A DNA stretch of 35,120 bases, from assembly GCA_025057135.1 (NCBI GenBank), contig JANWXY010000072.1, forward strand, positions 1-35,120. The letters are read 5' to 3'. Below the pieces are notes generated by a model. That model was not told the DNA's origin. It worked only from the letters and a program-made list of their open reading frames with translations, and ran no database searches. The translations under genes and the position numbers were made by a program. This DNA is from Bacteroidia bacterium (lineage in GTDB: Bacteria > Bacteroidota > Bacteroidia > SpSt-205). Position 1 is the stretch's first letter. The number at the start of each line of letters is the position of its first letter. Shown here piece after piece: positions 21,646 to 30,388 of the stretch.

Positions 21646-21718
21646 GGGGGGTTAGCTCAGTTGGTAGAGCGCCAGCATGGCATGCTGGAGGCCAGCGGTT
21701 CGACTCCGCTACCCTCCA
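21646..21718 (+). tRNA. tRNA-Ala (GGC)
   Basis: The 73-nt cloverleaf has acceptor GGGGGGT paired with ACCCTCC including the Ala identity pair G3:U70, D arm GCTC/GAGC, anticodon stem CCAGC/GCTGG with loop ATGGCAT (anticodon GGC), T arm AGCGG/CCGCT with TTCGACT, and discriminator A. CCA is not encoded. Confidence 0.96.
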
Positions 21719-21725
21719 CGCCCGC

Positions 21726-21798
21726 GGGGAGTTAGCTCAGATGGTAGAGCGCCAGAATCGCACTCTGGAGGTCAGCGGTTCGAATCCGCTACTCTCCA
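21726..21798 (+). tRNA. tRNA-Ala (CGC)
   Basis: The 73-nt cloverleaf has acceptor GGGGAGT paired with ACTCTCC, again with G3:U70, anticodon stem CCAGA/TCTGG with loop ATCGCAC (anticodon CGC), and T arm AGCGG/CCGCT. It is very similar to the tRNA 7 nt upstream and probably arose by duplication. CCA is not encoded. Confidence 0.95.
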
Positions 21799-21803
21799 CT
21801 GAC

Positions 21804-21893
21804 GGAGAGGTGCCGGAGTGGTCGAACGGGCACGACTGGAAATCGTGTACTCCGACAAAATCGGAGTCGGGGGTTCGAATCCCCCCCTCTCCG
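21804..21893 (+). tRNA. tRNA-Ser (GGA)
   Basis: The 90-nt class II tRNA has acceptor GGAGAGG/CCTCTCC, anticodon stem CACGA/TCGTG with loop CTGGAAA (anticodon GGA), a long variable arm (ACTCCGA...TCGGAGT), T arm GGGGG/CCCCC, and discriminator G. CCA is not encoded. Confidence 0.96.
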
Positions 21894-21911
21894 CTCCCCT
21901 TAAGTAAGCTC

Positions 21912-26982: not shown

Positions 26983-28410
26983 ATGAAACCGAAAATCGTC
27001 ACATTCAGTGTAGCCCTCCTGATAGGAGTGGCCATGGGAAATGGCCTTACCATTTCCAACCTTTCCGTCAACCAGACAGCTGGTACAGTTACTTTTGATG
27101 TACAGTGGCACAATAGTTTCCGAGACGCTGAAAACTGGGATGCAGTCTGGATATTTGTCAAGTTCAGAGATTGTAGTGTGCCTAAAACAGTCCCCTTCAC
27201 ACATGGACTTATAAGTACGACTCTATCAGATCACACTTTTCCAGCGACCCTTCAGCCGACCTGTGCAAACGGAACGCCTAACTGTATAGACCCTGCACCA
27301 GACAATACAGGCGTGATGCTTAGGAGAACCTCCAACGGATTTGGTACTATTGGAGGTACAGTGACTCTGCGTGTCACTAACCTTCCCGCCGCGGGTAGCT
27401 ATGATGTGCGAGTAATTGGAATAGAGATGGTTTTCATACCGCAGGGTAGCTTTTATGCTGGGGACGCTACGAGTAATAATAGCATCCGCACCAGCAATAC
27501 GGATAATAGTCCTATTCAAATTACCAGCGAAGCCGCTCTTACTACAATCAGTTACTTGGGAGCGGGTAATTTCTCTCTAACAGCTAACTTTAGAAAAGGT
27601 TTTGCCGCATTTTACATCATGAAGTATGAAATAAGCCACGGCCAGTATGTAGATTTTCTAAATACCATCGGACAAAGCCAAGCCTCTAATCGCTTCCCCA
27701 ATACAACTGTTAACCGCCACCGAGTGATGTATAATACGCTGACGACAGAGTACTATACTGATCGTCCAGACCGGGCAGTAAACTACATTAGTTGGGAAGA
27801 CCTTGTAGCTTATCTGGACTGGGCAGCCCTTCGCCCTCTTACAGAGTTAGAGTATGAAAAAGCCTGCCGAGGTCCATTAGCGCCTGTACCAAATGAGTTC
27901 GCATGGGGTACAACTGCTCATACCTATGGCGTCACCCTCTCAGGCGCTGAGGATGGCACGGAAACTTTCATTACTCCGGGAGCCAACGCTCGAGCTATCG
28001 ACCAGACGATCACAGGAGGGGACGGTGGCGCAGGACCATGCAGAGTAGGAATATTTGCTACGCCTTCTACAAATACTCGGGCTGCTTCGGGTGCAAGTTA
28101 TTGGGGCGTAATGAATTTATCGGATAATGTTCTTGAATATTACTACGATCTAAGGGCAGGGCAGTCAGGTCGTTCACCTTCTAATGGAATTCCTTGGGGA
28201 GATGGGAACCTCAGCGCGGCTGGTGATGCCAATCAACTCAACTGGGTAACAACCTGTAATACCACAGATATTATTATGCGGGGAGTCATGCAAGCAGGCA
28301 ATCCTAATTTAGGCAGGGTGAGTCACCGAGGATTTGTTGGTTATACTTGTGGGTGGTCAGACTATTATCCAGGCAGGTTCTTCACCAACGGAGGTCGCGG
28401 AGGACGCTAA
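26983..28410 (+). CDS. Secreted SUMF1/formylglycine-generating-enzyme-like protein
   Basis: This 475-residue protein has an N-terminal signal segment (MKPKIVTFSVALLIGVAMG). A beta-rich domain follows (about 22-147: VTFDVQWHNSFRDAENWDAVWIFVKFRDC), then a SUMF1/FGE-sulfatase fold from about 148 (IEMVFIPQGSFYAGDA, FYIMKYEISHGQYVDFLN, LRPLTELEYEKACRG, YWGVMNLSDNVLEYYYD). The C-terminal active-site Cys pair of true formylglycine-generating enzymes is not seen; only one Cys (GYTCGWSDYYPGRF) is near that place, so catalysis of that type is doubtful. No T9SS domain is visible. It lies 13 nt upstream of the Cys-repeat protein gene and is probably cotranscribed. Confidence 0.85.
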   Translation: MKPKIVTFSVALLIGVAMGNGLTISNLSVNQTAGTVTFDVQWHNSFRDAENWDAVWIFVKFRDCSVPKTVPFTHGLISTTLSDHTFPATLQPTCANGTPNCIDPAPDNTGVMLRRTSNGFGTIGGTVTLRVTNLPAAGSYDVRVIGIEMVFIPQGSFYAGDATSNNSIRTSNTDNSPIQITSEAALTTISYLGAGNFSLTANFRKGFAAFYIMKYEISHGQYVDFLNTIGQSQASNRFPNTTVNRHRVMYNTLTTEYYTDRPDRAVNYISWEDLVAYLDWAALRPLTELEYEKACRGPLAPVPNEFAWGTTAHTYGVTLSGAEDGTETFITPGANARAIDQTITGGDGGAGPCRVGIFATPSTNTRAASGASYWGVMNLSDNVLEYYYDLRAGQSGRSPSNGIPWGDGNLSAAGDANQLNWVTTCNTTDIIMRGVMQAGNPNLGRVSHRGFVGYTCGWSDYYPGRFFTNGGRGGR

Positions 28411-28423
28411 AATTCGCTGGAAT

Positions 28424-30388
28424 ATGCTACGTTGGATGCTACTGGCGGGATTGCTATGGGCCCAAACAAAGTTCAAAGGAGGAGCCAATGGTGGCACGGC
28501 TTCCATTCGCATAGCTTGTACCCCAGTAGCATCAAGCTCTCAAAAGTTTCAAGGGGGAGACTACGACGGTACAGCCTTAGTCAGTACCTTTCTTACGATA
28601 TGTAGTCCTCCCCCCCCTTCTACCAATAGTAAGTACACTGGCGGTTCTTATGATGGAGCGAGCATGCGTATCCTTTCATGCCCATCCAGCTCCATCACTT
28701 CACTCAAATATCAAGGCGGCATATGGGATGGAGGAGGTATAGCAACCACTTCTTGTCCTCCATCCCTTCTATTTAGTAATAAGTTCTCTGGTGACTCGGC
28801 GGATGGGGCTGGAATGGCTATAACTTACTGTATCACATCCACTATCACATCTGATAAGTTCAAAGGTGGAAGCCAAGATGGTTCTAATCTTGGTATTACT
28901 CAGTGTATTTTTGTGAGCCTTACTTCTCAAAAATTTACGGGTGGAGAATATGATGGAGCAGGTATGATAGGGACGAGTTGTGTGCCTTCTCCTGTAGCGT
29001 CACCTAAGTTTTCTGGGGGAGATTTTGACGGAGCCCATCAAGCAACTTTCAACTGCGTAGTCTCTTCGTTTGTCTCTGTAAAATTCGCTGGCGGCCCATA
29101 TGACGGAGCTTCGCTTGTTTCTTTTGCCTGCCCGATTAGCAATCTGACTTCTAGTAAATTCTCAGGAGGGGTATATGACGGTAGTGTCATGGGGATTGAT
29201 GCCTGTCCGACCCCATCTTTGACCTCTGGAAAATTTTCAGGTGGAAGCTATGATGGGGCTTCTCTTTTCTATCTTTCCTGTACACCGCCACTGCCACCGG
29301 CTAATAGCAAATATGCAGGTGGTCCTTTTGACGGAAATAGTCTCATTCAGTATGCCTGTCCTTCAACTTTGATTACTACCGACAAGTATCGAGGTGGTAG
29401 CTACGATGGAGAAGGCTTTGTGCAACAAGCATGCGCTATCATCACCTTCACATCCGACAAGTTTAGCGGCGGCAGCTACGACGGAGAAAGCATGGTAGCA
29501 TCTTTTTGTTCTATTTCCCCTCTGACTTCTAGTAAATATGCTGGTGGAATTTACGATGGCGAAGCGATGAGTATTGTAGCATGCGCAGTGTCTCCACTTG
29601 TTTCTAATAAATATACTGGCGGCTCCTATGACGGAGAAGCTATTATTCAGATAGCATGCCCAATCACACCGCCCCTCTCCGACAAATACACAGGCGGACC
29701 ATATGATGGTGAAAGTATGATAGCTCAGACATGCCCTCCTTTCGTCATAGCGGCTCTCAAATATCAAGGGGGACCTCGAGATGGCGCCGCTTTAGGACCG
29801 AATAACTACAATTGCCTTCCCCCTCTCTCCATCAGCACTCTACTTAGCTTAGACGGTGAATGGTTCACAGAAAAAACCGCCAGACTCCGTTGGGAAAGCT
29901 CCACTGAGATCGGCATAGTAGCTTACACTCTCTATCGCCTCCCCGAAGATATAAACAAAAGCCCCACAGAGGTAGCAACTATCCCAGCTCTCTATCGCGA
30001 TAATGCCCCCCATTCATATGAAGTTTTAGATAAAGTTCCCTCGGCTGGCAGCTATCACTACTGGGTTGAAAGCATTGCAGACCATGGTGGCAGGCAAAGC
30101 CGATCGAATACTGTAACTCTCACCCTCCCAGAAAGTTGGAAAGCTTTAGTCTATCCTAATCCTACCGCTCATTCAATATGGGTCAAAATAGAGTCACCTC
30201 ACAAAACAGAGGTAACCTTCAGCCTTTGGAACCTAGCTGGACAAGTAGTCTATCTGCATAACCATGTCGTCCCTCAGGGAGCATCCACCCATCATATCCC
30301 ACTGGAACTCTTCCCGTCTGGTCTCTACCTCTTGCAAATTAGCGCCTCGCATAGCATGATCCAAACTTTCAGAATAGTCAAAATCTGA
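28424..30388 (+). CDS. T9SS-secreted protein with 18 tandem Cys-containing 25-residue repeats
   Basis: This 654-residue protein has a short signal peptide (MLRWMLLAGLLWA, then Q). Residues 16-464 are 18 tandem repeats of about 25 residues with consensus K-[FY]-x-G-G-x-Y-D-G-(8 mostly variable)-C-(8 variable), each with exactly one Cys. An FN3-like domain follows (about 475-565: ARLRWESSTEIGIVAYTLYR, YHYWVESI), then a T9SS type A sorting domain (LVYPNPTAHSIWVKIES, FSLWNLAGQVVYL, SGLYLLQISAS). An ATG at 28334 would add 30 residues overlapping the upstream gene, but the signal peptide indicates 28424. The repeat function is unknown; the protein should be at the cell surface or secreted. Confidence 0.9.
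   Translation: MLRWMLLAGLLWAQTKFKGGANGGTASIRIACTPVASSSQKFQGGDYDGTALVSTFLTICSPPPPSTNSKYTGGSYDGASMRILSCPSSSITSLKYQGGIWDGGGIATTSCPPSLLFSNKFSGDSADGAGMAITYCITSTITSDKFKGGSQDGSNLGITQCIFVSLTSQKFTGGEYDGAGMIGTSCVPSPVASPKFSGGDFDGAHQATFNCVVSSFVSVKFAGGPYDGASLVSFACPISNLTSSKFSGGVYDGSVMGIDACPTPSLTSGKFSGGSYDGASLFYLSCTPPLPPANSKYAGGPFDGNSLIQYACPSTLITTDKYRGGSYDGEGFVQQACAIITFTSDKFSGGSYDGESMVASFCSISPLTSSKYAGGIYDGEAMSIVACAVSPLVSNKYTGGSYDGEAIIQIACPITPPLSDKYTGGPYDGESMIAQTCPPFVIAALKYQGGPRDGAALGPNNYNCLPPLSISTLLSLDGEWFTEKTARLRWESSTEIGIVAYTLYRLPEDINKSPTEVATIPALYRDNAPHSYEVLDKVPSAGSYHYWVESIADHGGRQSRSNTVTLTLPESWKALVYPNPTAHSIWVKIESPHKTEVTFSLWNLAGQVVYLHNHVVPQGASTHHIPLELFPSGLYLLQISASHSMIQTFRIVKI
28469..29815 (+). repeat. 18 tandem ~75-bp coding repeats (GGxYDG...C)
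   Basis: Period is ~75 nt (25 codons, occasionally 26 or 29). The protein motif is conserved, while the DNA and codons differ between units, so the array is old and held by selection on the protein. Unit 5 (KFSGDSADG) and unit 1 (KFKGGANGG) are the most degenerate; units 11-17 are the most alike. Confidence 0.9.

Follow-up and report, generated by a model that had tools for sequence, protein, structure and literature searches.

A Cys-bearing tandem repeat in a T9SS cargo protein of Bacteroidia is paired with an upstream gene for a secreted FGE-fold protein, its putative docking partner

In cellulosomes, the scaffoldin-dockerin system provides many docking sites on an anchored scaffold for a partner encoded by another gene. 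A similar way of working, with an anchored multi-site scaffold and a partner from a separate gene, is proposed here for a locus in a 35,120-nucleotide stretch of a Bacteroidia genome (contig JANWXY010000072.1; the whole stretch is called the window), but the docking site would be a unit of only about 25 aa, possibly disulphide-sealed, and we know of no sequence relation between this unit and scaffoldin or dockerin. The partner resembles FGE/SUMF1 enzymes (PF03781) in fold (Z 18.1) and family match, whereas it lacks the catalytic Cys pair and carries an extra N-terminal domain. The DGR variable proteins TvpA and TaqVP share with it the FGE/C-type-lectin fold and a variable C-terminal stretch; unlike in those systems, no PF00078 reverse transcriptase was found in five genomes of the window's genus (G000, G004, G005, G007 and G010). 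For the FGE-fold protein GldK of Flavobacterium johnsoniae, intermolecular disulphides to SprF and to PorG have been described, by authors who note that hardly any other permanent disulphides between periplasmic proteins are known (PMC12635249). PorK, which has the same fold, serves as a non-catalytic docking hub and has likewise lost the FGE C-x4-C pair (PMC12421860). The locus resembles the GldK/PorK case in a non-catalytic FGE fold that would act as a docking hub in Bacteroidota, and may resemble it in an intermolecular disulphide to an envelope protein, which covariation suggests here. However, GldK and PorK are T9SS motor lipoproteins (track and ring proteins), whereas the partner described here has its own N-terminal domain bearing the Cys and pairs with a repeat in a T9SS cargo.

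The locus consists of the following features, all on the forward strand of the window.

26983..28410, +, partner gene, encoding a 475 aa secreted FGE/SUMF1-fold protein without T9SS tail
27040..27414, +, N-terminal beta domain of the partner (aa 20-144), pLDDT above 90, bearing the covarying Cys
27172..27174, +, codon of partner Cys64 ('WDAVWIFVKFRDC'), the covarying Cys
27415..28407, +, FGE-fold domain of the partner (aa 145-475), without C-x4-C pair
28411..28423, +, 13-base gap between partner gene and repeat gene
28424..30388, +, repeat protein gene, 654 aa, with signal peptide-like N-terminus, 18 units, linker region and T9SS tail
28469..29842, +, array of 18 units K-[FY]-x-G-G-x-[YF]-D-G-x7-C-x8 (aa 16-473), one Cys per unit
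29843..30148, +, region between array and sorting tail (aa 474-575), without family match
30149..30382, +, T9SS type A sorting domain (aa 576-653)

The repeat gene starts with the ATG at 28424 and its reading frame ends at 30388. The original prediction, made from the letters of this DNA, had described the product as a T9SS surface protein with an array of 18 units, one Cys in each and nearly constant spacing, and all of this is confirmed. Fifteen of the 18 units are exactly 25 aa long, the others being units 2 (29), 11 (26) and 18 (28). K1, G4 and G9 are invariant, [FY]2 is present in 18/18 units, and G5 and D8 in 17 of 18 each. The protein contains 18 Cys residues in total, one per unit and none outside, and 13 of the 17 Cys-to-Cys distances are exactly 25, while 18 Cys placed at random never gave more than three such gaps. 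The strict motif K[FY]xGGxxDG occurs 16 times, against at most one copy in 20,000 shuffles, and many of the units have C-P or C-x-P after the Cys. As the prediction had noted, the DNA of the units has diverged, with a mean pairwise identity of 47% (32-61%) against 39% for the protein, and the array goes undetected by Tandem Repeats Finder on the window DNA. All four Gly codons and both codons of Lys, Asp and Cys are used at conserved sites. Judged from these sequences, the unit pattern is maintained by selection and not by recent duplication, since the conserved residues are kept at low DNA identity while their synonymous codons vary freely.

The protein has both features of a T9SS type A cargo, an N-terminal signal (the peptide being judged by eye) and a C-terminal Por_Secre_tail matched by PF18962 (E 1e-8, aa 576-645) and TIGR04183 (E 2.5e-10). 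The claim that the unit belongs to no established family holds in Pfam, NCBIfam and the PDB. No curated model of Pfam or NCBIfam matched the array at E up to 1, with the single exception of a pentapeptide-repeat match at 12 bits against a cutoff of 460, and a PDB sequence search with the repeat returned zero matches. As to the calcium binding that the original prediction considered possible for the Asp/Gly-rich loops, the GGxxDG of the unit is spaced unlike the RTX nonapeptide. The motif strings of the unit were not found in the open-access literature searched.

A gene absent from the original prediction lies 13 bases upstream and likely forms one operon with the repeat gene. Its product, the partner, has a signal peptide-like N-terminus and matches PF03781 (E 1.9e-14). 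Structure comparison of its FGE-fold domain gave Z 18.1 to FGE (2q17), 17.7 to PvdO and 16.5 to PorK, and Z 16.8 and 11.5 to the DGR variable proteins TvpA and TaqVP. The catalytic, copper-binding C-x4-C pair of FGE is present in 0/160 partners, and a role as FGE enzyme was rejected on this ground. No T9SS tail (Por_Secre_tail) was found in the 20 partners tested. The NCBIfam GldK model gave the window partner 13.7 bits, below its cutoff of 350, and matched weakly only one of 20 family members. Among the Foldseek matches, faint ones to pilins at ranks 41, 49 and 50 could hint at donor-strand docking of the N-terminal domain, a hint far too weak to use. Homologues of the partner are present in 73 of 395 Bacteroidia genomes and in 51 of the 197 genera sampled, and also in records labelled Omnitrophota, Verrucomicrobia and Ignavibacteriae. 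In two loci (L155 4276-6984 and L169 9001-12068) the partner gene also encodes an Lcl_C domain and a Hint-type domain as fusions, the Hint-type domain being PT-HINT in the former and a weak Hint match in the latter. Near the C-terminus of the partner (28313-28407 in the window), a stretch of about 30 residues that precedes the conserved GGRG[VAG]R end varies strongly among homologues, close relatives included; N, S, Y, D, G and R abound in it, as in DGR targets. A DGR origin of this stretch was rejected because of the missing reverse transcriptase in the five genomes named above.

The two genes are found together well beyond the window. A search with the repeat only gave 26 loci, three of which are cut by contig ends on the upstream side; in all of the remaining 23 the repeat gene has a partner homologue upstream of it in the same orientation, in most cases as its direct neighbour. 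L020, L090 and L099 have a split partner or a longer gap. Conversely, of 171 loci found with the partner, at least 124 have the unit in the following gene, several of the misses being truncated next genes or units that escape the pattern. Cultured, non-pathogenic carriers include Flavobacterium dankookense DSM 25687 (L145) and Taishania pollutisoli CZZ-1 (L134). One lineage (L213, L215, L221 and L222) has the partner without an adjacent repeat gene. The repeat seems to be one component of a common system of two genes. No description of the pair was found in the open-access papers searched on SUMF1, PvdO or nonheme iron enzymes together with T9SS, and one may exist among subscription papers. 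Some of the loci found with the repeat have two or three partner genes in tandem, and at L080, L110, L087 and L112 these are diverged from each other and precede one repeat gene, where the scaffold may carry mixed subunits. In the closest relative (L018 7786-11280; G005, KatS3mg025) both genes are frameshifted, with the partner split about 75 aa from its start and a surplus base within a near-identical unit of the repeat gene; they could be pseudogenes, or the cause could be phase variation or a sequencing error. A record titled Glaciecola amylolytica chromosome (CP034120.1, L130) contains a partner and repeat nested among Saprospira/Taishania types, by either lateral transfer or a mislabelled record.

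At strict E-values, the window protein as query detected the unit in 5 of 60 genomes, and a relative belonging to another family detected it in 17 of 295. A scan of genome contigs with patterns taken from the window repeat protein gave zero matches, these patterns being too specific. The core of the unit is [FYW]xGGx[YAS]DG followed by the Cys, usually 13-17 residues past the first G, and the unit length ranges from 19 to about 33 aa among relatives, many of which have no Cys in their units. Two architectures recur: small proteins with units from the mature N-terminus followed by a T9SS tail, and much larger ones (roughly 900-2,900 aa) that also contain PKD and Ig-like domains. The smallest proteins, of 137-142 aa (L133, L137, L152, L163 and L209), are composed of a signal peptide, one unit (e.g. 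QYSGGNGRGDVMLELL), a short linker and the T9SS tail. Because such single-unit proteins occur, the unit must be independent of neighbouring units, and they leave little room for anything beyond joining something to the T9SS tail, which favours a docking motif over a solenoid. Since these proteins amount to a unit plus a T9SS tail, and the partner has no such tail, the layout suggests that the partner is what they carry or anchor. The window genome encodes a second unit protein on contig C45. Its gene at the end of C45 and a second partner gene at the end of contig C3 both run off the contig ends, and probably belong to a single locus that was broken up in the assembly.

The Cys residues of partner and unit were compared in 132 partner-repeat pairs, with the position of the unit Cys counted from GG. 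The residue at the position of C64 ('WDAVWIFVKFRDC') is Cys in 81 partners and another residue in 60. No second Cys column of the partner tracks the presence or absence of C64, which therefore has no obvious intramolecular mate. A Cys in the partner loop is matched by one in the unit at +12 to +19 in 65 pairs (64 late and one at +12). All six partners with the Cys in the last strand of the N-terminal domain ('VCVFAIEM') are paired with units whose Cys is early (+9 to +11), as in L288; the cut between early and late was chosen after the data were seen. In 54 of the 132 pairs, such as L133, the Cys is missing from both proteins. The unit has a Cys and the partner none in four pairs (L150, L172, L244 and L277), and only one of three units has a Cys in L131. 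The set also includes L251, a false unit call in a truncated protein, and L271, which was misparsed and has the true state loop/late. Several apparent exceptions in the enlarged set turned out to have the partner Cys displaced within the loop or sited in another strand; in L228, L278 and L283 it is displaced within a longer loop and the unit Cys is still present.

On a tree built from the FGE domain alone, the Cys state of the partner changes eight times. The supported independent pairs on this tree agree in 3.8 of 4 cases for any Cys and in 4 of 4 for strand or none, with 0 opposite, and the best p value of a sign test is 0.125, the changes being too few for significance. An earlier test on 88 pairs had only two supported independent pairs. 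The joint shift in position is hard to explain unless the two Cys meet. This covariation points to a unit Cys that is bonded to another protein, the product of the upstream gene, and not along the array. The suggestion that the Cys residues form disulphides could hold, while the ladder of Cys along the array is not supported.

We propose, as the probable reading, that each unit is a docking site for one FGE-fold partner, sealed by a disulphide in the Cys-bearing forms, and that the repeat protein is a scaffold carried by the T9SS. The unit would be beta-hairpin-like, with [FY]xGG, a turn at xxDG and a second strand ending near the Cys, and would bind the N-terminal beta domain of one secreted partner. 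In Cys-bearing forms, one disulphide between the unit Cys and partner Cys64 would lock the contact. Because the T9SS tail is on the repeat protein and none is on the partner, the repeat protein would act in trans as carrier and surface anchor of the partner, and with its 18 units it could present as many as 18 partner molecules. As in PorK/GldK, the FGE domain would be a non-catalytic binding fold, and this domain, with the variable stretch near its end, would be the face that binds ligands. Counterpoints to this docking model are the low confidence of the units in a co-fold with the partner, the small number of independent Cys changes, the pairs with a Cys in the unit alone, the partners without an adjacent repeat gene, and T9SS export of many bulky subunits, which is unproven.

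Alternatively, the partner may remain within the cell and assist export in the periplasm, as a chaperone or carrier bound to the units, whether or not a transient disulphide is involved. Its signal peptide and missing T9SS tail would fit this explanation, and the same gene pairing and Cys covariation would be expected from it. However, a single-unit protein that is little but a unit and a T9SS tail makes the partner likelier to be cargo, and it would be unusual for a chaperone to have as many as 18 sites on a single cargo; we regard this role as unlikely.

The original prediction had considered a solenoid or beta-helix possible, and in its self-contained form the array would be a beta-solenoid or hairpin stack with a Cys ladder, the upstream gene being a mere operon neighbour. 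AlphaFold2 was run on units 7-17 alone with a 30-row repeat alignment. The model shows two regular strands per unit with an exact 25-residue period, and its central blocks reach pLDDT 78; beta-helix-like matches are only faint, with probability up to 0.03. Nevertheless, the overall confidence is low (mean pLDDT 64, pTM 0.59) and the best match in a PDB structure search with the unit model had an E of 3.7, none being significant. The variable unit length, the single-unit proteins, the partner association in 23 of 23 loci and the shift of the unit Cys along with that of the partner also stand against this fold, which appears improbable. A co-fold of the window partner and four units as one chain (model m54c8ac5135d8) was made with the partner stop TAAA read as one step and an alignment of nine natural same-frame pairs from other genomes. 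The partner reached pLDDT above 90 and the units 34-64, and confident docking was not seen.

It is very improbable that the partner is an enzyme that modifies the unit Cys by formylglycine or C-S chemistry with the array as its substrate: an FGE fold (Z 18) does lie beside a Cys-rich array with frequent C-P or C-x-P, but the catalytic C-x4-C is missing in the 160 partners (PvdO-like chemistry could still occur), the covarying partner Cys sits outside the FGE domain, and Cys-less unit/partner pairs persist, so that the Cys is not a conserved substrate and its oxidation cannot be the shared function.

Returning to the docking scaffold, we suggest more tentatively that the locus represents a widespread, undescribed Bacteroidota system, in which a tandem-motif T9SS cargo carries and covalently displays many copies of a tail-less FGE-fold binding protein, with one disulphide per motif, and acts as a trans-acting T9SS adaptor and disulphide-locked surface scaffold. 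If this is true, a role would be given to a large group of proteins found in 51 of the 197 Bacteroidia genera sampled. These proteins presumably carry only the names 'formylglycine-generating enzyme family' or 'SUMF1/EgtB/PvdO family' at present. The system would also join GldK, with its bonds to SprF and PorG, as a second example of stable disulphides between envelope proteins of Bacteroidota, and would provide a route for T9SS export of proteins without a sorting tail. The model predicts a DTT-sensitive ladder of adducts, and a loss of the partner's surface exposure when the repeat gene is removed.

Two other features of the window were observed. A run of about 30 G at the contig start (40-69) is probably an assembly or sequencing artefact. 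Two adjacent and closely similar tRNA-Ala genes (ggc and cgc), followed by a tRNA-Ser gene, are located at 21646-21894.
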